Of a stretch of DNA of 28,680 nt, positions 1 to 12,573 are shown one piece after another (position 1 is the stretch's first letter; each line of letters begins with the position of its first letter). Source of the stretch: a virus; IMG/VR virus record IMGVR_UViG_3300044951_000983, positions 1 through 28,680 of that record; one strand, given 5' to 3'. The position numbers were made by a program, and so were the translations under genes. The notes under the pieces are model-generated. The model was not told the DNA's origin, searched no databases, and was given only the letters and a program-made list of their open reading frames with translations.

Positions 1-660
1 GACACAGGTACTGTTATTACTTCACCTGATGGTACGACATGGACAACTAGAACAAGTGGTACGACTAACGCGCTGTACGGAGTCACTTACTCTTCAGCTG
101 ACGATCTCTTCGCCGCTGTAGGTGCATCAGGCACTGTTATTACTTCGCCCGACGGTACAACGTGGACGACGCGAACCAGTGGTACGGCTAACGGTCTGAA
201 CGATGTCACTTACTCATCCACCGACGACCTCTTCGTTGCGGTAGGCGACACAGGTACTGTTATTACTTCGCCTGATGGAACGACATGGACAACGCGGACG
301 AGTGGTACGACTAACGCGCTGCGCGGAGTCACCTACTCATCTGCTGATGATCTCTTCGTCGCTGTAGGCACATCGGGCACAGTCATCACTTCTCCCGATG
401 GAACGACATGGACAACTCGTACTTCTGGTACGGCTAACCAGCTGAACGCAGTCACCTACTCTTCAGCTAACGATCTCTTCGTTGCGGTAGACGCATCAGG
501 CATCGTCATTACTTCACCTGACGGTACGACATGGACAACTCGTACTTCTGGTACTACTAACGCGCTGAGCGCAGTCACTTACTCATCAGCAGATGACCTC
601 TTCGTTGCGGCAGGGGGTGGAGGTGTAGTCCTCACTTCTCCCGATGGAACGACATGGACA
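1..660 (+). repeat. Tandem 123-nt coding repeats (propeller blades), first array
   Basis: The array has five complete 123-nt units plus part of one at the window edge, all in frame. The scaffold is nearly constant. Differences concentrate at the residues either side of the Leu in N-x-L-x-x-V and at two residues between AVG and GTVIT. The array continues upstream of the window, so its total unit number is unknown. Confidence 0.9.
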
Positions 661-921
661 TGCCCAGTACTGAAAACCGGTGACCTCTTCGTCGCCATGA
701 TTGCCTACCGCAGCAACGCCGCGTTCTCGTTGCCTTCCGGCTGGAGTCTTGTCGCCACACAGCAGAGTTCTGGTAATACATTAACGGTAACATCAACGTC
801 AATCGGCTCAGGTTTGATGGCGTACTGTGTTTATGACGCGGCTTCACCTCCGGGATACACGTTCACGCGTACAGCGGGTAATGTTGCTTACGGTCGCTTG
901 GCTGTGTACCGGGCGGAATAA
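1..921 (+). CDS. Asp-box (BNR/YCF48-like) repeat adhesin, 5'-truncated by the window
   Basis: Frame 1 is open from base 1 to the TAA at 919-921, so the true start lies upstream of the window. The visible part has one partial and five full units of about 41 residues, of the form NALYGVTYSS-DDLF-AVG-x-x-GTVIT followed by SPDGTTWTTRTSGT. The SPDGTTW core resembles the Asp-box of BNR/YCF48-type beta-propellers. From about base 661 a beta-rich domain follows (AFSLPSGWSLVATQQSSGNT ... YTFTRTAGNVAYGRLAVYR). The product is probably a virion adhesin or side tail fibre; that role is inferred from the repeats and from the neighbouring tail genes. The downstream paralogue at 1539 continues in frame past this point, whereas here translation ends at YRAE. 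The next ORF starts on the last A of this stop (TAATG). The coding sequence is GC-rich compared with the tail operon. Confidence 0.75.
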   Translation, partial: DTGTVITSPDGTTWTTRTSGTTNALYGVTYSSADDLFAAVGASGTVITSPDGTTWTTRTSGTANGLNDVTYSSTDDLFVAVGDTGTVITSPDGTTWTTRTSGTTNALRGVTYSSADDLFVAVGTSGTVITSPDGTTWTTRTSGTANQLNAVTYSSANDLFVAVDASGIVITSPDGTTWTTRTSGTTNALSAVTYSSADDLFVAAGGGGVVLTSPDGTTWTCPVLKTGDLFVAMIAYRSNAAFSLPSGWSLVATQQSSGNTLTVTSTSIGSGLMAYCVYDAASPPGYTFTRTAGNVAYGRLAVYRAE

Positions 922-1290
922 TGCCAATCACTTACGACACCGGTAGTGCGAATACGCTAGGTGCAATCAGCACCACAGTAACCACCGCATCTATCACGAC
1001 CGCTGAGGATGGCGAGCTTCTCATCTCGTTCTTCTTCGGTGCGGATAACACTACAGCGTCACTCTTTACCGCAGCCACCAGCCCCACCAATCAGTCCGTT
1101 GCTACGGGCGGGGCGCATATACCTAACCCTAACTTTTGGGGTGAGGTTGCAGACAACCAGACACCGACAGGTGCGGACACTACTAATACCTTCGCACACG
1201 CTGTCAAAGTCACAGCCGGTGCCACGGGTACGCTGCAAACCACAGCAGGAAACTCATCACGTCACGGCTTGATTATTGGTGCGTTTAAGC
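661..1290 (+). repeat. Long direct repeat, copy 1 (copy 2 at about 3337-3975)
   Basis: This block codes for the end of the last propeller unit and two beta-rich domains. It is very similar at the DNA level to about 3337-3975, including an exact 51-nt match (1224-1274 with 3909-3959, offset 2685). The two copies differ by 10 nt near 911-935, where copy 1 loses the reading frame. Both copies end at an equivalent codon (HGLI-GAFK), after which the sequences diverge into AT-rich DNA. Confidence 0.85.
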
Positions 1291-1442
1291 TTCCACCCAC
1301 TGTAATTATTTCGAATGAACATCTATCGAGCACTAACAATATAGAATCACCGAATCTGATAGTTTCAGAATTCTCATTTTTACTTTCATCCATTGTGGTG
1401 AGTGATATTACTAGCAATGGCGGTCGATTGACTGTCAATTAA
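921..1442 (+). CDS. C-terminal half of split adhesin (beta domain plus short solenoid-like tail)
   Basis: This 173-aa ORF begins at ATG 921, overlapping the previous stop by one base (TAATG). Reinitiation by the same ribosome is plausible, because I see only a weak purine run upstream. Residues 1-120 match the second beta domain of the 1379-aa protein encoded at 1539 (YDTGSANTL ... HGLIIGAFK), where this domain is fused in frame to the propeller. After residue 120 the DNA becomes AT-rich and the protein changes to LSSTNNIESPNLIVSE and similar text, which resembles one or two units of the 22-residue repeats at the end of the 1379-aa protein. It may be a separately translated domain that reassembles with the upstream product, or the tail of a frameshifted gene. 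Which is true cannot be decided from the sequence alone. Confidence 0.7.
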   Translation: MPITYDTGSANTLGAISTTVTTASITTAEDGELLISFFFGADNTTASLFTAATSPTNQSVATGGAHIPNPNFWGEVADNQTPTGADTTNTFAHAVKVTAGATGTLQTTAGNSSRHGLIIGAFKLPPTVIISNEHLSSTNNIESPNLIVSEFSFLLSSIVVSDITSNGGRLTVN

Positions 1443-1455
1443 AAAAGGAAAAGTT

Positions 1456-1539
1456 ATGTACATCATCGGTAGTATAAGTAGAAAAGTCAATATTATAGAA
1501 GCTACCGAAGTGGGGCTAGTAGATATAGGAGCACCATAA
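1456..1539 (+). CDS. 27-aa mini-ORF between the two adhesin genes
   Basis: ATG 1456 is preceded by a purine run with GGAA at 1447-1450 and ends at TAA 1537-1539, which overlaps the ATG of the large adhesin (TAATG). The product begins MYIIGSISRKVNIIEATEV and has no recognisable domain. Its tight coupling to the next gene suggests it may serve mainly as a leader that delivers ribosomes. It could also be debris of a longer C-terminal region. The DNA is AT-rich, unlike the adhesin modules on each side. Confidence 0.4.
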   Translation: MYIIGSISRKVNIIEATEVGLVDIGAP

Positions 1540-4500
1540 TGCCTTCCTGGCGTTACATTGGTCAGAACCTGTCTACGGCGGTTCTGTCAGGTAATTTGAC
1601 GCTTGGTTATCCGGTCATGGATGACGTGCTGACTAACCAGTTGAACGCGGTCACTTATTCATCAGTTGATGACCTTTTCGTCGCTGTAGGCAATGCAGGT
1701 ACAGTCATTACGTCGCCCGACGGTACGACATGGACAACGCGGGCGAGTGGTACGACTAACACGCTGTACGGAGTCACGTACTCATCAGCAGATGATCTCT
1801 TCGTCGCAGTAGGTACATTAGGCACCGTTCTCACTTCACCTGACGGTACGACATGGACAACTCGTACTTCTGGTACGACTAACACGCTGTATGCAGTCGC
1901 TTACTCATCCACCGACGACCTCTTCGTTGTTGTAGGCGAAGTAGGTACCATCATCACCTCGCCTGACGGTACAACGTGGACAACGCAGACCAGTGGTACG
2001 ACTCAAACACTGTCCGTAGTCACCTACTCATCAGCAGACGACCTCTTCGTCGCTGTAGGCTTCGCAGGCGTGGTCATTACCTCACCTGACGGTACGACAT
2101 GGACAACTCGGACGAGCGGTACGAGTAACAATCTGAACGCGGTCACTTACTCATCCACCGACGACTTGTTCGTAGCGGTAGGCGACTCAGGTACAGTCAT
2201 CACCTCACCTGATGGTACGACATGGACAACTCGTACTTCTGGTACGGTTAACCAGCTGCGCGCAGTCACCTACTCACCCGCCGACGACCTCTTCGTAGCA
2301 GTAGGATCAACCGGCACCGTCATCACTTCACCTGACGGCACGACATGGACAACGCGTACCAGCGGTACTATTAACGCACTGCGCGCGATCATCTACTCAT
2401 CCACTCTCTTCGTTGCTGTAGGTGTATCAGGCACCATCATCGCGTCTCCCGAAGGTACAATATGGACAACTCGTACTTCTGGTACGACTAACGCGATGCT
2501 CGGAGTCACCTACTCATCAGAAGAAGACCTCTTCGTCGTTGTAGGGGACGCAGGCACTATCATCACCTCGCCTGATGGCACGACGTGGACAAGACGAACA
2601 AGCGGTACTACTAACACGCTGTACGGAGTCACTTATTCATCCACCGACGACTTGTTCGTTGCTGTAGGTGACGTAGGCACTGTCATCACCTCACCTGACG
2701 GTACGACATGGACAACCCGAACCAGCGGTACGACTAATACGCTGTACGCAGTCACCTACTCACCCACCGACGACCTCTTCGTAGCGATAGGTAACATAGG
2801 TACTGTCATTACCTCACCTGACGGTACAACGTGGATAACGCGTACCAGCGGTACGACTGACCAGTTGAACGTAGTCACTTACTCATCAGCCGATGACCTC
2901 TTCGTGGCTGTAGGGGGTAATGGCTTCAACACAGGCACAGTTATCACTTCGCCTGACGGTACGACATGGACAACACGAACAAGCGGTACGACTAACACAC
3001 TACGCGCAGTCGCCTACTCATCTACTCTCTTCGTTGCTGTAGGGCATGCAGGTACAGTCATCACCTCATCTGACGGTACGACATGGATAACGCAAACAAG
3101 CGGTACTACTAACACGCTGTACGGAGTTACTTACTCACCCGAAGAAGACTTGTTCGTCGCTGTAGGTTTCTTTGGCACAGTCATTACTTCTCCTGACGGC
3201 ACAACTTGGACAACGCGGACGAGCGGTACGACTAACAACCTATGGGGAGTCACCTACTCATCCACTGACGACCTCTTCGTCGCTGTAGGCAATGCAGGTA
3301 CAGTCATCATCTCACCTGATGGCATTAATTGGATGTGTCCTATACTGAAAACCGGTGACCTCTTCGTCGCCATGATCGCTTACCGCGATGCCGCTGCGTT
3401 CTCGATACCTTCAGGATGGAGCCTCGTTGCCACGCAGCAGAGTTCTGGTAACACATCCACGATCACATCAACGTCAATCGGTTCAGGCTTGATGGCGTAC
3501 TGTGTCTATGACGCTGCTTCACCTCCGGGATACACGTTCACTCGTTCAGGTGGGAATGTGGCTTACGGTCGCTTGGCTGTGTACCGAGAAGAGTACGGTT
3601 ATGCAATACCAGTAAATTACGACACCGGCAGTGCGAATACGCTGGCCGCGAATAGCGACACCGTAACCACCGCATCTATTACGACCGCTGAGGATGGCGA
3701 GCTTCTCATCTCTTTCTTCTTCGGTGCTGGTAACACTGCGGCGTCACTCTTTACCGCAGCCACCAGCCCAACCAATCAGTCCGTCGCAACGGGTGGGGCG
3801 CACATACCGAACCCTAACTTCTGGAGCGAGGTTGCAGACGGCAGCACAACATCTGGTTCGGACACTAGCAACACCTTCGCACACGCGGTCAAGGTCACGG
3901 CTGGTGCTACGGGTACGCTGCAAACCACAGCAGGAAACTCATCACGTCACGGCTTGATTGTTGGAGCGTTCAAAAGATCCGATTTGCAAACTTTACTTAT
4001 TGTTACATATCCAGCAGGTACTGGTATACCTTCCAAGGCTCAGATAGTAGCAGGGCAGAACGCATTAGGTACCCCAGCATCCTGGGCAGGTAATGCAGTA
4101 TGGTCAGGTCCTGGGCAATATTTAGAAGTTACTGGGCTTTTACCTGAAACTGAATATGATTCTGCAGCTGTAATATTTGATGGTACAAAATATTCTAACG
4201 TCGTAGAGGTAAATGGAATATGGACAACGCTAGAAGGCTCCTTAACCCTAAACCTAGCAAATCTAATAAATTCCACTTCATCTGAAACTTTCAGTTTAAT
4301 TCAGCAAAATCTGATTCAACTTGCTAATATTATTAATAGTAATATAATTGATAATAGTATACTAAATACTAATATAAGTTTATTACTAAATAATATAGCA
4401 ACTGCCAATATTATTAGTAATATTGAATTAACCCAAGCAAATAGTTTAATACTTCAAAGTCTTGCTAATGGTAATTCAATTAGTACAGTACTATTATATC

Positions 4501-5678
4501 AAGCTTATGTACTTTCAATTAACCACTTAGTTAACTCAACTATAGTTGATAATGTATTATTAAGCCAAGCGTTAACTTTAGTCACTAATCATTTAGCTAA
4601 TAGTAATATACTTACTACAGCTGATTTAATTCAAGCTAATACTTTAATACTACAAAGCTTAGCACAAGGCAATTCAATAAGCTCAGTATTACTATACCAA
4701 GCTTATGTACTTTCAATTAACCACTTAGTTAACTCAACTATAGTTGATAATGTATTATTAAGCCAAGCGTTAACTTTAGTCACTAATAATTTAGCTAATA
4801 GTAATATACTTACTACAGCTGATTTAATACAAGCCAATACTTTAATACTTCAAAGTATTGCTAATAGCAATTCAATTAGTACAGTATTACTATACCAAGC
4901 TTATGTACTAACAGTTCAGAACTTAACTAATGCAAAAACAATTGATAATGTACTGCTAAGCCAAGGACTAAATCTACTAGTTAATCACTTAGCTAATAGT
5001 AGTTTACTCACTACAGCTGATTTAATTCAAGCTAATAGTCTAATACTACAGAGTTTAGCTTCTTCAAACTCAGTCAGCGCATTATTATTATACCAAGCTT
5101 ATGTACTAACGGTTAATAATCTGCTTAGTGCAAAAATAATTGATAATATACTACTAAGCCAAGGACTAAATCTACTAGTTAATCACTTAGCTAATAGTAA
5201 TTTAATTACTACAGCTGACTTAATACAGGCTAGTACTTTAATACTAAATAGTTTAGGTTCCTCTAACTCAGTTAGCCCATTATTATTATACCAAGCACAT
5301 AGTTTACTAATTGATAGTCTAAATATAAATTCTAGTATAGAAGAGTTTGCACTTTCACAAGGCATAACTATAAGTTTACTAAATCTATTAGTATCAAATA
5401 CTAATAGCACTATAGAATTAAACCAGAGTAATGTATTATTAGTTGACTACTTAGATGTAAGTTCTTTTACTGATAATTTAGAATTAGGTACACAAGCACA
5501 GTTAATTATATCTGATATTCTTCATAGTAGTTTTATAAATAATATCATTTGGATTAATAATATTATTCCAGAAGCTAGAATAATAGTAACAAGTACTGAT
5601 AATAGGTATGTTTTAATACCTATAGAAAATAGGTTCTTACTAATAGCTAAGGACGATAGAACTTTATTTGGAGTTTAA
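1539..5678 (+). CDS. 1379-aa chimeric adhesin: 14 propeller blades, beta domains, FN3-like domain, 22-residue solenoid
   Basis: Start ATG 1539 has AGGAG at 1527-1531. Residues 33-600 are 14 units of about 41 aa with the Asp-box-like core SPDGTTW. Units 7 and 12 lack two residues (the DD of TDDLF), and unit 11 has a short insertion. Residues about 605-684 and 685-812 are two beta-rich domains shared with the preceding gene pair. Residues about 816-900 are an Ig/FN3-like phage domain (PAGTGIPSKAQIVAGQNA ... YLEVTGLLPETEYDSAAV). Residues about 901-1340 are some twenty 22-residue repeats of the type L-x-L-x2-L-x-N-S-x2-I ending LSQA, LIQA or LYQA. The last 35 residues repeat a short NR-x-x-L-I/L pattern. 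DNA up to about 3975 is GC-rich and the rest is strongly AT-rich, marking a domain fusion. A receptor-binding virion protein is the likely role; attachment to the tail is inferred. Confidence 0.8.
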   Translation: MPSWRYIGQNLSTAVLSGNLTLGYPVMDDVLTNQLNAVTYSSVDDLFVAVGNAGTVITSPDGTTWTTRASGTTNTLYGVTYSSADDLFVAVGTLGTVLTSPDGTTWTTRTSGTTNTLYAVAYSSTDDLFVVVGEVGTIITSPDGTTWTTQTSGTTQTLSVVTYSSADDLFVAVGFAGVVITSPDGTTWTTRTSGTSNNLNAVTYSSTDDLFVAVGDSGTVITSPDGTTWTTRTSGTVNQLRAVTYSPADDLFVAVGSTGTVITSPDGTTWTTRTSGTINALRAIIYSSTLFVAVGVSGTIIASPEGTIWTTRTSGTTNAMLGVTYSSEEDLFVVVGDAGTIITSPDGTTWTRRTSGTTNTLYGVTYSSTDDLFVAVGDVGTVITSPDGTTWTTRTSGTTNTLYAVTYSPTDDLFVAIGNIGTVITSPDGTTWITRTSGTTDQLNVVTYSSADDLFVAVGGNGFNTGTVITSPDGTTWTTRTSGTTNTLRAVAYSSTLFVAVGHAGTVITSSDGTTWITQTSGTTNTLYGVTYSPEEDLFVAVGFFGTVITSPDGTTWTTRTSGTTNNLWGVTYSSTDDLFVAVGNAGTVIISPDGINWMCPILKTGDLFVAMIAYRDAAAFSIPSGWSLVATQQSSGNTSTITSTSIGSGLMAYCVYDAASPPGYTFTRSGGNVAYGRLAVYREEYGYAIPVNYDTGSANTLAANSDTVTTASITTAEDGELLISFFFGAGNTAASLFTAATSPTNQSVATGGAHIPNPNFWSEVADGSTTSGSDTSNTFAHAVKVTAGATGTLQTTAGNSSRHGLIVGAFKRSDLQTLLIVTYPAGTGIPSKAQIVAGQNALGTPASWAGNAVWSGPGQYLEVTGLLPETEYDSAAVIFDGTKYSNVVEVNGIWTTLEGSLTLNLANLINSTSSETFSLIQQNLIQLANIINSNIIDNSILNTNISLLLNNIATANIISNIELTQANSLILQSLANGNSISTVLLYQAYVLSINHLVNSTIVDNVLLSQALTLVTNHLANSNILTTADLIQANTLILQSLAQGNSISSVLLYQAYVLSINHLVNSTIVDNVLLSQALTLVTNNLANSNILTTADLIQANTLILQSIANSNSISTVLLYQAYVLTVQNLTNAKTIDNVLLSQGLNLLVNHLANSSLLTTADLIQANSLILQSLASSNSVSALLLYQAYVLTVNNLLSAKIIDNILLSQGLNLLVNHLANSNLITTADLIQASTLILNSLGSSNSVSPLLLYQAHSLLIDSLNINSSIEEFALSQGITISLLNLLVSNTNSTIELNQSNVLLVDYLDVSSFTDNLELGTQAQLIISDILHSSFINNIIWINNIIPEARIIVTSTDNRYVLIPIENRFLLIAKDDRTLFGV
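1635..3330 (+). repeat. Fourteen tandem 123-nt coding repeats (propeller blades), second array
   Basis: Fourteen in-frame units follow one another without spacers. Most are 41 codons; two are 39 and one is 45. The core SPDGTTWTTRTSGTT is almost constant. Variation clusters at x1, x2 and x3 of N-x1-L-x2-x3-V and at the pair after AVG (NA, TL, EV, FA, DS, ST, VS, DA, DV, NI, HA, FF). Fourteen would fit two seven-bladed propellers. Confidence 0.92.
3337..3975 (+). repeat. Long direct repeat, copy 2 (copy 1 at 661-1290)
   Basis: This is the in-frame counterpart of 661-1290. Here the linker between the two beta domains reads EEYGYAIPVNYDTG without a stop. The exact 51-nt match with copy 1 lies at 3909-3959. 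Just after this block, base composition falls sharply. Confidence 0.85.
4239..5552 (+). repeat. 66-nt (22-aa) solenoid repeats with a 198-nt higher-order period
   Basis: About twenty consecutive 22-residue units can be laid out without gaps. Units cycle as types A (NSLILQSLANGNSIS...LLYQA), B (YVLSINHLVNSTIVDNVLL) and C (LTLVTNHLANSNILTTADLI), giving a 66-aa superperiod repeated about four times. DNA starting at 4501 and at 4699 matches for roughly 130 nt with a single difference (4590 against 4788). This points to recent tandem duplication of a three-unit block. Confidence 0.9.
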
Positions 5679-5680
5679 AA

Positions 5681-6169
5681 ATGAAATATCTCACTAAAGG
5701 TGACTTGCTCACCCTCCTAGATGATGAAGCAAGCGCCTTTACTGCATTCATGATGGACCCTGCTCAATTCGGGGTTCAAGAACCTTTGCTCACTACGCTG
5801 AAGCTGGAGAAGCAGAAGTTCGACTGGACGAATGGTGTGGATGTGGGTCTGCCTCAAGTGCAGGCACTGGTATCTGTGCTGCAAGGCTACGGTGTTATCT
5901 CGGCTGAGAAAGCTGCTGCCATTCATGCGACGCCTGACACCCCTGAACTGGATTCATTCACGGTCAACATTCTGGCTCAGGATGAGATTACCGAAGCGAA
6001 TCGCTACGGCGCTGAAATGCGTGGCAGTAACTATTACACCAAGGTTGATTTCCTGAATGACACCAAGGGCGAGGTTGTTACTGAAGAATTTATCTTCGAC
6101 CGAGTACCTTCTGAAGCTGAAATGACTGCTGCCATCATGCAGCACATCAAACACTTGAAGGCTCGCTAA
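5681..6169 (+). CDS. 162-aa protein of unknown function between two adhesin genes
   Basis: ATG 5681 follows the previous stop by two bases, with a GGAG-type site about 8 nt upstream. The stop overlaps the ATG of the 1341-aa fibre (TAATG at 6167-6171). The protein is soluble-looking and rich in acidic residues, with a helical N-terminal half (MKYLTKGDLLTLLDDEASAF) and a C-terminal half containing EAEMTAAIMQHIKH. I recognise no domain. Base composition matches the GC-rich fibre gene that follows, so the two probably arrived together. Because it is small and coupled to the fibre, a fibre-assembly chaperone or a small fibre-linked virion protein is possible, but nothing in the sequence proves this. 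Confidence 0.65.
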   Translation: MKYLTKGDLLTLLDDEASAFTAFMMDPAQFGVQEPLLTTLKLEKQKFDWTNGVDVGLPQVQALVSVLQGYGVISAEKAAAIHATPDTPELDSFTVNILAQDEITEANRYGAEMRGSNYYTKVDFLNDTKGEVVTEEFIFDRVPSEAEMTAAIMQHIKHLKAR

Positions 6170-9100
6170 TGGCTGTCCAGACAGTTACAGCCAACGTGAA
6201 TGCTGATGCGATTGCATCGGGTGCATGGCGTTCCAATGACTCTCTGACCATCAATAATGGCGCAGTGGTTACGGTCAACACGGATCAAGCTAGGTTCTGG
6301 AATAGCATCACCATCAACAACGGCAAGCTGCGCATTGAGAATACCAGTACGACTGATGCCATTCGTTTCATCATGGGGCGGGTATCAGGAACCGCAGCAG
6401 GCAACATCACACCTGCCTCTGGATTGGGTTCTGTGGAGATTGCAGGTAACTGGATTGAAATAGGTACGAGTAACGGTACAGCAGGCCAGACTTTCACCGT
6501 GCCTTACCGTGATTACGTGGCTGCGTTGTGGGTAGAGACTGCACCTAGTTCTGGCGTCTATGAGTCCTGGGCGAATGCTGGTGAACCTTACGGTATGGTT
6601 CCTAAATGGCTGTTGTCTGGTCTTGCTGCGTTTGGTAAAGGCCGCAAGGGCATGGTGTTTAAACAAACCCCTAATACCGCACAGCATCGCAATATCGTTC
6701 TGACCAACTGTTCCATTACCAATGCCAGCCGTATTGCTACGGTAAGCAGCACAACTGACTTATCTCCAGGCGCACATATCACTGGTTCAGCAGGTATTAC
6801 TGCGAATACGGTAGTTGAGAAAGTGCTGTCTGCCACTCAGTTTGAAATGAATGTGGCGGCTACGGCTACCAGTTCAGTCGTTACGATGACTATCTATACC
6901 ACTTGGGAAGTACAGCATACAAACCAAGTGGTATTCGGTGATGACTTCGACGGTGCGATTCCGCCGAATGGTTGCAAGATCAGAATCCCGAACATCATGG
7001 TGACGCATGTATGTGGCGAGAATATTCACAACGGGGCAGTCACTGGAACCTATATCGCCTTAACTAATTCAGGTAGTTTGATTGCCGATACTTGCTTATT
7101 TGATGTGGCTCCGGGTAACTATACCGGAGCAGAGAAACTTTCACTGAAACGTATTGGTTGTAGTTATCCGCCAACGCTCAGTAAGGTTTACGGCATTGAT
7201 ATTGATGATATGTGTGTGGCGGTACGTCCCTTCCGTAATCATTGGGGAGCAACTACACCTGTACTTGATACTACTGCAACCAACGCTGGAAGCAACGGCA
7301 CGCTTTGGGCTATTAGCTACATTACCGGTTCAGTTAAAAAAATACACATAGCCGCCACTAAACAGATTGGTGGTGGTACTTCCAGCATTCTGCGCTTCGA
7401 CTATTGCGATGGACTTACTTTAGAAGACACTCGTCTTATTTGTCAGGGTGGCAGAAATGCTCAATCCATGCTTGCGCTATATTATGTCAATAACTCAATT
7501 ATTGATGGTGTAGAAACGTATGGTGGCCCACCCATTCGTTTTGTCACTTCTTCTGATAACAAAGTAAGTAACGTAGTGTTTGGAATGAGTGTGTATTCAG
7601 AAGGTGTTTCTTACGATTACACTAGGTACACTCTGTCGGCACAATATGATCCGGTAACAGGTAATCCGTTAGCTGAAAATACGCGGTACTATATTAAGCC
7701 ATTCTGGCAAGAGTATGCCAATATGGGCTACACCGGCTTCTTTGGTGATTGGAGGGAGCATTCTGCTGTTCCGCACCTCATGCCTACAGATGGTGTTCCT
7801 CAAGTATGGATAACGCCGGGAAACAATACGGTTTCTATAGGCTGGACTAGACTTGATCCAACACACACATCTCCAGCTTATGAGGTCTATCGGTCTACTG
7901 ATCCTGCGGTTCCTGTAAGAGATGCTGGCACTCGGGTATTTACGACAAGTACGGTAACTATTGTTACTGCGGCAGACAATACGGCAGTCAATGGAACCAC
8001 TTATTACTATGTGTTGCGTAAATATGCCTCTGCCGGTGTTTATGTAGATACACCTGCATTAAGAGCCACGCCTAAAGCATCGCTTCCATATACAAACTTT
8101 GCCAGATACTCCCACGACATTAGTAGTTCAACATGGGTTAAGTCCAATATCACAGCGGGGTCTACAGCAGCATGGGCTGGCTCTGGTATGGATGGAAATA
8201 AAGGTACGTCAATCAGACAACTGCTTGCAACGGCAGAGGCAGGTAATGGAACGGCAACACTCTCCGTTACTGGTCTAACAATAGCGACTACCTACACTGC
8301 ATCTATACTGATGCAGGCAGTTCCACGCAAGGCAACGAATACCCTTTACCCAACGGTGGCTGGTAGGATTACCTTTGGTACAGCATTTACTGATTTCACG
8401 CTGACAGATACGTTAGAAGTAAAGCACGTCACTTTTGTTGCTACTGCAACAAGCCATGATTTAGTTATACGAATGAATAGATCGGCTGACGTTATTGCTT
8501 ATGAAGGTGTATTTGTAACAGGCACTTCAACTCCTGTATTTACGCAAGAAACTGCTGCTGCCGCAGTCACTCCGGATATTGGTATGAATTATGCGGGTTC
8601 TAGGGGTTATACGAGTGGAGGTGAAACTCGCAACCAAGGAATAATCCTTACCGGAAATTCTAACTTGGTGTGGAATATATGGTGCGTTGGCACTGATCCT
8701 GACTTTGTACCAAGCAAGGAAAACATTCTGTATTGGACCGCTGTTGCAACACCATTCTTTGTATTTACTACATCCTCAAATAGAAATGTATTAGAAAACG
8801 TAACACAATCTGGATGGGGTGGTGCTGTTCAGGCAGCCTTTAATTTAACGGCTTCAAGTTCAGATAACTATATTCGTAATATTGATCTGAAATTAGGCAC
8901 TGGGTTTTTCAGTGGCACATCTGCTAATATAGATATTCAGTTTGACTCAAACAGAAACCGTTTTAAGAATATTCAAATAGATGGCAATATGGTGAGAGGG
9001 GCTAGCAATCCAGTTGTTTATGCGTTGAATACCGCCAGCGATACAATTTTGGAAAATGTAAGAACTGAATTCGGAAGTGCTGCCTTATATACCTATAACA

Positions 9101-10194
9101 ATGGCATGATATTCAAGGGAGTGGGTGGTGGTAGCTCGTCTAAACCAGATGGGGCGGCGACTACGCCTCTTTGGAATATTGGTAGCACTACAGATGGTTT
9201 AACGCAAAGCGGCTTAGGCGTGTTCGACACTCACTTTGCCGAGATGTATCACACTGCGACTACGGGTGCGTTAGGTCTGGTATTTACTGCCTCTACTCAA
9301 GCCGTCAAGCCTTATGAACTCACTGGTCTAGCTGCCTTCTCCAATACCGGCAGGCTATATCTTCAGCAAGCAGGGGACTCTGTAACTTACACTTGGCCGC
9401 ATAAGATTTATGGGGTGAGTGGCTTTAGGTCAATTCTGCCCAAGGTCTATTGCGAACAGCTTAATTCGGGCATTACGAATGCGGATATTCCGCAAGCCAT
9501 ACTGATTGAAGTTCAAGTTGATACAGGAACGGGTTATGGTGGTTGGATTGAAGCCACCCCTGCAAATCTTGCTGGCATCACGGTATCGGCTACTGTGGGT
9601 TTCAACCTGAAGGTTCGGATTACTGCACGTCAGTTCTTTATTTACCAAAGCCAAACCAATAACTTCGTAGTTGGTGAAACTGTTCGCCACATTGCCGGGG
9701 GTGGCACTGCTCGGATACTTGCAGACTTTGATACTGGCGCTAGTGGGTTATGTGTAGTGGATCAGGTTGTTGGAAATTGGACAACAGCCACTAACATTGT
9801 CAGGGATTCGGATAGCCAAGCGAGAGCAAATCTTGTGTTGGTCAATACGTCCTTCGCTTTCGGCCCATCATTCAATAGCTTCATCCAAGGTCTGTACCTC
9901 TGGACCACGGTAGACCAAACGGCTACCTATCCTGATGACATGACTACGGTGACTTTCACTGGTCTGCCTACAGGTTGCGACATTGTGATTCTGACCGCTG
10001 GCACAAACACCATCATTGATCAGGTTGATCAGAACGTAGGGACTTCCTACGCCTATGCCTACGCAGGCACGCCCACGATTGATGTGGGATTCATTAAGCC
10101 GGGGTATCAGGTGCAATTCATTCGCAATCTGACGCTAGGGCTGACCAGTTCGACTATTCCTGTTTCCCTCATCCAAGATCGTAACTATATTTAA
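6169..10194 (+). CDS. 1341-aa multidomain tail fibre/spike protein
   Basis: The start overlaps the upstream stop (TAATG). Residues about 1-110 are beta-helix-like text with repeated inward Val/Ile and Asn-Gly turns (SLTINNGAVVTV, SITINNGKLRIEN). Residues about 183-245 match a common phage structural domain (STTDLSPGAHITGSAGI ... SATQFEM). Residues about 250-530 are again beta-helical and Asn-rich. Residues about 545-635 look like an FN3 domain (NTVSIGWTRLDP ... TYYYVLRKYAS). Residues about 641-795 form a jelly-roll or carbohydrate-binding-like domain opening NFARYSHDISSSTWVKSNIT. Residues about 823-985 are a second beta-helical stretch (SSNRNVLENV, SSDNYIRNID, DSNRNRFKNI). The C-terminus ends PVSLIQDRNYI, a pattern I associate with phage structural proteins. 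It is probably a host-recognition fibre or spike. No depolymerase active site is identifiable by eye. Its GC-rich DNA contrasts with the backbone. Confidence 0.75.
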   Translation: MAVQTVTANVNADAIASGAWRSNDSLTINNGAVVTVNTDQARFWNSITINNGKLRIENTSTTDAIRFIMGRVSGTAAGNITPASGLGSVEIAGNWIEIGTSNGTAGQTFTVPYRDYVAALWVETAPSSGVYESWANAGEPYGMVPKWLLSGLAAFGKGRKGMVFKQTPNTAQHRNIVLTNCSITNASRIATVSSTTDLSPGAHITGSAGITANTVVEKVLSATQFEMNVAATATSSVVTMTIYTTWEVQHTNQVVFGDDFDGAIPPNGCKIRIPNIMVTHVCGENIHNGAVTGTYIALTNSGSLIADTCLFDVAPGNYTGAEKLSLKRIGCSYPPTLSKVYGIDIDDMCVAVRPFRNHWGATTPVLDTTATNAGSNGTLWAISYITGSVKKIHIAATKQIGGGTSSILRFDYCDGLTLEDTRLICQGGRNAQSMLALYYVNNSIIDGVETYGGPPIRFVTSSDNKVSNVVFGMSVYSEGVSYDYTRYTLSAQYDPVTGNPLAENTRYYIKPFWQEYANMGYTGFFGDWREHSAVPHLMPTDGVPQVWITPGNNTVSIGWTRLDPTHTSPAYEVYRSTDPAVPVRDAGTRVFTTSTVTIVTAADNTAVNGTTYYYVLRKYASAGVYVDTPALRATPKASLPYTNFARYSHDISSSTWVKSNITAGSTAAWAGSGMDGNKGTSIRQLLATAEAGNGTATLSVTGLTIATTYTASILMQAVPRKATNTLYPTVAGRITFGTAFTDFTLTDTLEVKHVTFVATATSHDLVIRMNRSADVIAYEGVFVTGTSTPVFTQETAAAAVTPDIGMNYAGSRGYTSGGETRNQGIILTGNSNLVWNIWCVGTDPDFVPSKENILYWTAVATPFFVFTTSSNRNVLENVTQSGWGGAVQAAFNLTASSSDNYIRNIDLKLGTGFFSGTSANIDIQFDSNRNRFKNIQIDGNMVRGASNPVVYALNTASDTILENVRTEFGSAALYTYNNGMIFKGVGGGSSSKPDGAATTPLWNIGSTTDGLTQSGLGVFDTHFAEMYHTATTGALGLVFTASTQAVKPYELTGLAAFSNTGRLYLQQAGDSVTYTWPHKIYGVSGFRSILPKVYCEQLNSGITNADIPQAILIEVQVDTGTGYGGWIEATPANLAGITVSATVGFNLKVRITARQFFIYQSQTNNFVVGETVRHIAGGGTARILADFDTGASGLCVVDQVVGNWTTATNIVRDSDSQARANLVLVNTSFAFGPSFNSFIQGLYLWTTVDQTATYPDDMTTVTFTGLPTGCDIVILTAGTNTIIDQVDQNVGTSYAYAYAGTPTIDVGFIKPGYQVQFIRNLTLGLTSSTIPVSLIQDRNYI

Positions 10195-10202
10195 GGAAAT
10201 AT

Positions 10203-11585
10203 ATGGCAAAAATTACTTCAAAAACATTACTAGCTGTAGGAACAGAAGTTAGTATTGATGAACCAAATCGTGTAATAACATTGAATGTAGCTGGGGATTT
10301 AGTGGCCAAGGATGGTGTCACTTGGCAGGCACTTTACTCCTTCTTTGTTGACTTATGGGCAACCCCAACTTATCAAGATAGTCCGTTTCCATTCTACGCC
10401 ATTGATGCGCTGTCTGGTCAGTTCCAGATTGGTACAGATGGTGCAACCTTCTCTGGATGGACTTTCAATTCTGATGCAACGCGTAACATGCTGCGAGATG
10501 GTGGTTGGTCAGAGTATTCAGCTGCTGGAGTACTATTGCAGCAGTATTCAGGTTTCGTAGGTCTTGGTAGTATTACTCCGGCTAGTACTGTACAACCATA
10601 TTATCATCTAGCACCAACAGATGCACCAACTAACTTCCCCTTTACTGATCAATTCAACGTTGGTATTAAAGTATTTGGTGATGCTACTCATGGTAACTTT
10701 GATAAACGTACTTATGCAAAGACATTCGCACGTGAGTATGGAAAAAAGTTCAAATCTTCTATTCTAGCAGATACCGGTGCTACTGCTACCGGGGCTAATA
10801 AACAGAACTTTCTAGTATCTAATGAGGATGACTTAAAGATTACTGGATTATTAGGTGATGTACAAGCTACAGCTGATACAGCTATGACTGGTGCACCTTA
10901 TAACGGTATTACAGTTGCCTACTATACAGTTAATCAAACTCGTACTATTGCAGGGGCTTCAAGAAACTTCAAGATTATTATCGAAGGCAATGGTGGTACT
11001 TTAGAGCAGATTTACGCTAAGGTTCAATATCTATTGCGCCAAGGTACTGATATTAATACTAGTGGAACAGCAGGTACTAAAATTGGTAAAATCCAAGATG
11101 AGTTACTACGCTTCGTTGGTGACATTTTAGTAACTTCACCTTCAGTTTATATTGATGATGTTCTATCCGCAGATAGTAATAGAATTGAGTTCTACGATGA
11201 TTCTAATACTCTACGTACTAACCCATATACAGCAGCAGGTACAATGTCTTTCAATTCAGTACTAGTAGGTGCTGGATCCAGCTATCGCTTAATGTTTACT
11301 ACACCACCTGGTGCCGGTAATGACTATGGTGAGACTGGGGCTATTACAGTTAATAATGCTGCTGGTACTCCAATTACTGGAACTATATCTGCCGGTAGTA
11401 TTGACTTTGATTACGATTATGATGGTAATGTACAGGGTGGATTTGCAGGAGGTACTGATAGAGCAGTTACTCTAATCGGTATTAAGCCAGGTACTGGTAA
11501 GTTCGCTGTTGCTAGTGGTACTCTATCACGTACTAAAGGTATTAGTCTATCATTGGTTGCTGAAACCGACCGCGTATACGCATAA
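10203..11585 (+). CDS. 460-aa conserved phage structural protein (neck/fibre region), function unknown
   Basis: ATG 10203 has AAGGAA at 10193-10198. From here the DNA turns AT-rich and stays so to the end of the window. The N-terminal third contains WQALYSFFVDLWATPTY, whose LYS-x2-VD motif recurs in the next protein. The middle is mixed alpha/beta, with a helical stretch near LEQIYAKVQYLLRQGTDI. The C-terminus ends LSLVAETDRVYA, similar in style to the DRNYI end of the fibre gene upstream. I know this type only as hypothetical virion proteins of siphoviruses, encoded near the head-tail connector. A collar, neck or fibre-attachment role is inferred from position. The ordinary Met content and lack of signal peptide or membrane segments fit a soluble virion protein. 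Confidence 0.6.
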   Translation: MAKITSKTLLAVGTEVSIDEPNRVITLNVAGDLVAKDGVTWQALYSFFVDLWATPTYQDSPFPFYAIDALSGQFQIGTDGATFSGWTFNSDATRNMLRDGGWSEYSAAGVLLQQYSGFVGLGSITPASTVQPYYHLAPTDAPTNFPFTDQFNVGIKVFGDATHGNFDKRTYAKTFAREYGKKFKSSILADTGATATGANKQNFLVSNEDDLKITGLLGDVQATADTAMTGAPYNGITVAYYTVNQTRTIAGASRNFKIIIEGNGGTLEQIYAKVQYLLRQGTDINTSGTAGTKIGKIQDELLRFVGDILVTSPSVYIDDVLSADSNRIEFYDDSNTLRTNPYTAAGTMSFNSVLVGAGSSYRLMFTTPPGAGNDYGETGAITVNNAAGTPITGTISAGSIDFDYDYDGNVQGGFAGGTDRAVTLIGIKPGTGKFAVASGTLSRTKGISLSLVAETDRVYA

Positions 11586-12246: not shown

Positions 12247-12573
12247 ATGGCAATAAAAAAACTTCAGAAAGATCCAGAAGCTAAGTTAGACTACTTAATG
12301 GATTTCGCATCAAAAACAAATAATAGACCTGGAGCTACTACAGATTATTTACAAGTATTAGATTCGGAAACTATAGTATCAGCCACAGTAGTATCTAGCA
12401 AACCAGCTGAGTTAGTAGTAGTATCTTCAACTATATCAGATAGTAATACTTCAGTACTATTCTGGTTAGATGGTGGTTTAGTTGGGAAAGAGTACATAGT
12501 AGTAGTATCTATTGTAACATCTTTAGGTAGAGAAGATGATAGAAGTGTAAAAATCCAGGTGGTGAATAAATGA
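12247..12573 (+). CDS. 108-aa small Ig-like phage protein
   Basis: ATG 12247 has AGGAG at 12237-12241. The N-terminal half includes DPEAKLDYLMDFASKTN and TDYLQVLDSETIVSATVV. The C-terminal half is a beta-sandwich-like pattern ending VLFWLDGGLVGKEYIVVVSI and REDDRSVKIQVV. This layout matches a family of small structural proteins that I know from many phages next to gp6-like connector genes, where they are annotated as hypothetical or fibre-like. It overlaps the connector gene by ATGA, so the two are translationally coupled. A connector accessory or decoration function is inferred. Confidence 0.6.
   Translation: MAIKKLQKDPEAKLDYLMDFASKTNNRPGATTDYLQVLDSETIVSATVVSSKPAELVVVSSTISDSNTSVLFWLDGGLVGKEYIVVVSIVTSLGREDDRSVKIQVVNK

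Follow-up and report, generated by a model that had tools for sequence, protein, structure and literature searches.

In this fragment of an uncultivated phage (the window, the whole stretch of 28,680 b that was analysed), two paralogous genes lie one after the other: copy 1 is interrupted by a stop and an overlapping start, and copy 2 continues through the equivalent position as a single reading frame. This raises the question of whether the interruption at 905-940 is a real gene boundary, the mark of a frameshifted pseudogene, or an assembly error. Our analysis indicates that it is probably a genuine gene boundary, with copy 1 forming two translationally coupled cistrons for the halves of a putative tail or head surface protein. 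The features concerned are as follows.

1..921, plus strand: ORF1 of copy 1, C-terminal 306 aa (the window begins within ORF1), with the end of a Ycf48/BNR-type beta-propeller followed by domain D1; it ends in YRAE and a stop
670..918, plus strand: D1 core of copy 1 (LKTGDLFVAM...GRLAVYRAE), the second part of a beta-sandwich
919..923, plus strand: TAATG, ORF1 stop and ORF2 start, overlapping by 1 nt
921..1442, plus strand: ORF2 of copy 1, 173 aa, starting MPITYDTG at ATG 921; D2 at about 921-1289, C-terminal tail at about 1290-1439
1456..1539, plus strand: mini-ORF of 27 codons (MYIIGSISRKVNIIEATEVGLVDIGAP, then a stop), ending TAATG into copy 2
1539..5678, plus strand: copy 2, the fused paralogue, with first D1 strand, propeller, D1, linker, D2 and a long repetitive C-terminal part
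3591..3614, plus strand: interdomain linker EYGYAIPV of copy 2, residues 87-94 of the model
3615..3971, plus strand: D2 of copy 2

Direct reading of copy 1 gave GTG TAC CGG GCG GAA TAA at 904-921, and the elements that the earlier note had described (YRAE, TAA, the overlapping ATG and MPITYDTG) all read as claimed at 904-940. The corresponding stretch of copy 2, GTG TAC CGA GAA GAG TAC GGT TAT GCA ATA CCA GTA AAT TAC GAC ACC from 3579, translates as VYREEYGYAIPVNYDT and reads through the linker without a stop (YREEYGYAIPVNYDTG). From the GTG to the shared TAC, copy 1 measures 29 nt and copy 2 39 nt, in agreement with the 10-nt difference reported for them. The arrangement is not a chance one: each ORF of copy 1 has its homologue in one half of copy 2, at 83% DNA identity over 689 nt, and other contigs show the junction again. 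No alternative ATG, GTG or TTG occurs in the ORF2 frame from 921 back to the previous stop at 879. The same type of stop/restart is indeed used elsewhere in the operon, with TAATG also at 1539, 6169, 13139 and 25449 in the window, alongside 4-nt ATGA-type overlaps at 12570, 23086 and 24469.

An AlphaFold model of the fused D1-D2 region of copy 2, built with 28 sequences (pLDDT 75.6, pTM 0.81), revealed two beta-rich (beta-sandwich) domains, the last strand of D1 ending at residue 86 and D2 beginning at residue 95. The split point of copy 1 aligns to residues 87-92, and the model places it in the linker between the two domains; in copy 2, the linker at 3591..3614 occupies this same position, with the last strand of D1 before it and the first of D2 after it. 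The propeller appears to sit inside D1: the first strand (MPSWRYIGQNLS...LTLGYP) is followed by the propeller and then by GDLFVAM, as compared with relatives that have no propeller (MAWSFVGVSSVVETATTTHTLTEPAGVAAGDLLVACI), and in full ORF1 the first strand of the beta-sandwich, MPSWRYIGQNLSTAVASGDLTLGYP, likewise precedes the propeller. Because the model of full ORF1 (P0008, pTM 0.49) is poor at the D1/propeller seams, this insertion is drawn from sequence comparison. With the propeller within D1 and the cut in the linker, ORF1 therefore comprises a whole D1 with its propeller, and ORF2 a whole D2. The inserted propeller is seen at 6325-8001 of the sister contig L009 and at 1539-3593 of the window, with about 11 repeats in copy 1 and about 14 in copy 2. 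Positions 1-921 matched PF14870 at 38.7 bits, above the cut-off of 27, PDB Ycf48 chains were matched by the propeller at an E of about 1e-5, and the repeat motif SPDGTTWTTRTSGT is common to Ycf48-like/BNR propellers and that of ORF1. Unlike Ycf48, the propeller here lies in a loop of a phage beta-sandwich domain and has 11-15 repeats rather than 7. A PDB sequence search with D1-D2 returned no match, Pfam and PHROG searches with ORF2 returned no family, and a profile comparison of D1 with D2 (probability 36%) was no more than suggestive of internal homology.

Comparison with related phages showed that the junction recurs. Two contigs assembled from two sister metagenomes carry it, with 0 mismatches to the window in 5314 nt (L009) and 2 in 6010 positions (L010, which is a separate assembly, since these two positions differ), and ORF1 is intact in both at 558 aa. 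A third contig, L012, has the same TAATG within a 46-nt identical stretch, although its surrounding domains differ by 13-16%, and a fourth, L038, is split with another sequence. ORF1 is cut off at the contig start in L012 and L038. Counting the window, L009 and L010 as one, the split thus occurs in three lineages. L011 and L013 carry the fused form, and in L013 its immediate upstream neighbour is the gene found just before copy 1 in L009. When either junction, split or fused, was sought by degenerate DNA scans, only these contigs matched, and a nucleotide search of window positions 1-6000 against 50,697 phage records gave no match. Our profile search of genome contigs yielded no D1/D2 relatives and so offers no prophage context.

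The L038 contig bears on how the boundary arose. Its order is that of the window (split copy 1, tailed ORF2, mini-ORF and fused copy 2 with the linker YGYAIPV), and its split junction reads GAA TAG GAG CGT AAA ATG TCG ATC, that is, a TAG in frame with ORF2, then a Shine-Dalgarno site, then the ATG. From GTG to TAC it spans 39 nt, exactly the length of the fused linker, and codon by codon TAG stands against the TAC/TAT (Tyr) and ATG against the ATA (Ile) of the fused copies. L038 therefore has both a stop and a restart although it lacks no nucleotides compared with the fused form, and the proposal that a deletion created them does not hold. The junction of the window and L012 corresponds to the L038 spacer with 10 nt removed, and the start accordingly lies at -1 instead of +9 relative to the stop; the deletion may have tightened an already existing boundary. 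The ends of the split copies (RAE plus stop, and M-x-I-T) have persisted despite synonymous changes, TAA to TAG among them, as in AGG GCT GAA TAG of L038 versus CGG GCG GAA TAA of the window, and the fused linker YGYAIPV is likewise conserved through synonymous changes. The mini-ORF has a positional counterpart in L038 (20 codons, 1809-1871, also ending TAATG into copy 2), carries its own GGAAA site in both phages and may be a translational leader.

To place split and fused forms relative to one another, a search with D1 only, blind to the downstream sequence, was used and gave 35 loci. Outside the propeller clade, all ~22 distinct contigs (near-duplicates removed) run D1 into D2 in one ORF, and two phages are also fused. 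Because every more distant relative found is fused, fusion is, on these comparisons, the ancestral state of the wider family, and the split arose within the propeller clade. The outgroup linker between YR and D2 is typically about seven residues; that of the clade's fused copies is about three codons longer and aligns with the L038 intergenic spacer. Since this alignment runs codon for codon along the L038 stop, Shine-Dalgarno site and start, with TAC for TAG and ATA for ATG, the clade's fused form could conceivably descend from an older junction of two genes that was fused again. The D1 and D2 trees have no well-supported branches, and there is some signal of recombination between D1/D2 copies.

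As to how copy 1 is expressed, ribosomes that finish ORF1 at TAA 919-921 would most likely re-start at ATG 921 by termination-reinitiation, yielding D1 and D2 as separate chains that could then associate non-covalently; copy 2 keeps both in one chain. The genes are co-directional, with overlapping or nearby stop and start at spacings of -1 (window) and +9 (L038), and both products are under selection. Spacings of -1, as in TAATG, are among the enriched coupled arrangements (PMC12548453), and in pairs spaced -8 to +10 nt, subunits of heteromeric complexes account for 30-45% versus 6-7%, a 4.5-8-fold enrichment (PMC10666635). The Shine-Dalgarno match before ATG 921 is weak (15% of random positions reach its value of -5.5), which could keep ORF2 output low; that of L038 is good (-7.5, 6 nt from the ATG). 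Coupled translation and D1:D2 assembly are inferred; the chains would putatively be part of the virion, on head or tail, with a putative role in attachment to a host surface.

Selection was estimated by the Nei-Gojobori method among split members (dS 0.5-1.4), which gave dN/dS values of 0.027-0.084 for D1, 0.116-0.174 for D2 and 0.165 for the ORF2-only tail. In the tail, 16.5 synonymous changes over 38.5 sites compare with 11.5 nonsynonymous over 117.5 (Fisher p 3e-5, rounded counts), and the indels between the two ORF2s of the window and L038, of 12 and 3 nt, are in frame. By these estimates, both parts of copy 1 are under purifying selection, the tail included. Since D1 and D2 recombine between copies and phages, part of the signal could come from fused donors, an objection that does not apply to the tail, which is conserved in L038 and is not in copy 2.

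Set against these data, an assembly or sequencing error at 905-940 has a next to negligible chance of explaining the split. The region does adjoin repeats, which assemble badly; the junction itself, however, sits in unique sequence outside them, and we ruled out an error on the strength of the sister assemblies and two different split phage contigs, one of them the 13-16% diverged L012 with the same junction. These contigs also answer, indirectly, the earlier note's concern that raw reads might hold extra bases restoring the frame. The earlier note suggested that copy 1 might be a frameshifted pseudogene, retained as a recombination donor. In favour of such a role towards copy 2 are the 83-87% DNA identity of the domains shared by the two copies and permutation tests that give some signal of recombination between copies (p 0.0005-0.001 for W2-S1 and W1-L011). 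This signal, however, needs no silent copy 1. Copy 1 shows neither relaxed selection nor disrupted frames, and because both of its parts are under purifying selection (dN/dS 0.03-0.17), including a tail with no counterpart in copy 2, we do not regard it as a pseudogene. Moreover, the stop has been kept through the TAA/TAG change and the ATG in three lineages, the L038 split involves no frameshift at all, and the split pair of L012 carries a different, long C-terminal part. Together, these observations make a pseudogene highly improbable. The other possibility raised there, that the protein is made as two coupled parts, gains support from the split in three lineages, the purifying selection and the cut at a domain boundary.

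Copy 1 might still yield a fusion protein by recoding, through -1 frameshifting in the window or stop readthrough in L038, and it is true that no stop interrupts the ORF2 frame over the 13 codons before ATG 921 and that the L038 stop is in frame with ORF2. We consider this very unlikely: direct reading of 904-921 shows no slippery X XXY YYZ heptamer ahead of the stop, the frame relation in L038 differs so that two different events (a -1 shift and an in-frame TAG readthrough) would be needed, and a stop followed by a restart at the aligned ATG, in L038 with its good Shine-Dalgarno site, accounts for both phages alike. A real split could also be neutral, with D1 and D2 acting independently and the linker state drifting without consequence. 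In keeping with this, the linker lies between the domains, and the domain trees do not follow the split state: an AU test rejected a single clade of split copies for D2 (p 0.020) and for D1+D2 (p 0.028), although not for D1. Against it, the tandem of a split first and a fused second copy is present in two of the three split lineages (the window and L038) on different backbones, and both the split ends and the YGYAIPV linker have been conserved. On balance, a neutral split seems unlikely, though less so than recoding, and we retain the interpretation of copy 1 as two coupled cistrons.

Phages that carry the D1/D2/propeller cassette differ in their portal and capsid families and have it at different places in the genome: a phrog_12 portal with a T5-like capsid, portal phrog_145 with capsid phrog_283 in L012, and phrog_145 with the again different phrog_247 in L038, suggesting horizontal exchange of the cassette. 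The ORF2 tail (SPNLIVSEFSFLLSS..GGRLTVN; window 1290-1439) also ends an 81-aa stand-alone protein at 6157-6402 of L013 and may itself be a mobile module. It is conceivable, and we offer it tentatively, that the two copies are a working pair, in which copy 1 would supply a propeller-bearing D1 and a D2 as exchangeable chains, copy 2 would supply the covalent version, and both would be mixed in one structure, the cassette travelling between unrelated backbones and the fused form perhaps being a re-fusion.

Among known proteins, Synechococcus phage S-CBWM1 gp97 (ATW62781.1) resembles copy 1 in having D1 followed by D2, with about 49% identity to D1 and a predicted fold that agrees with our model across D1 and D2 (TM 0.81 on the query, E 1.5e-10), as does XAI96042.1 of Microcystis phage Mwe-JY26, with 44% identity to D2. 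Unlike copy 1, both are single chains with no propeller in D1 and no split. Their D1-D2 order is preserved here, and copy 2 is likewise a single chain, whereas copy 1 of the window, the L012 pair and copy 1 of L038 are not. Termination-reinitiation pairs such as trpB-trpA (Huber et al. 2023, PMC10666635; Brown and Wade 2025, PMC12548453) share with copy 1 the 1-nt TAATG overlap, the common strand and the encoding of two halves that form one chain elsewhere; in copy 1, by contrast, coupling is putative, and the operon also holds a fused paralogue immediately downstream. Weaker likenesses were seen to predicted minor tail proteins of Mycobacterium phages Stubby and Shauna1 (Foldseek match to the whole model, TM about 0.5) and, as the best PDB match of D2, to the receptor-binding protein (RBP) head of lactococcal phage Tuc2009 (Z 5.3, rmsd 3.8 over 101, tied with unrelated rows); these lie in the range expected for common beta-sandwiches, and we claim no membership. 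A literature search for split or fused phage fibre genes found no papers with the terms used.

What is unusual here is that one operon carries the same protein both split and fused, an arrangement conserved in phages whose backbones differ. This amounts to a natural gene-splitting experiment, in which two domains form a single gene product in one place and two products in the neighbouring gene of the same operon, and this in different phages. With it, one can ask directly whether a covalent link in a phage surface protein can be substituted by coupled translation, and why both forms are kept. For annotators, it carries the warning that stop/restart genes like copy 1 should not be called frameshifted.

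Several further observations concern the surroundings of the pair. The C-terminal part of copy 2 (window 4200-5400) is a diverged repeat array, AT-richer than the preceding domains, with the repeat NSISTVLLYQAYVL..N.L...DN.LLSQ...LV.NHLANS.LLTTADLIQAN and no assigned fold. Between the paralogue pair and the neck genes lie two large proteins, at 6169-10194 (1341 aa) and 10203-11585 (460 aa), neither of which matched a PHROG or Pfam family. At the protein level, the products of the capsid gene (read on L009) and of the major tail gene are about 35-40% identical to those of T5-like phages. At L043:13535-16831, among the head genes of the L038 contig, a 1,098-aa ORF gave matches to PHROGs of phage RNA polymerases (phrog_414, 1.6e-20).
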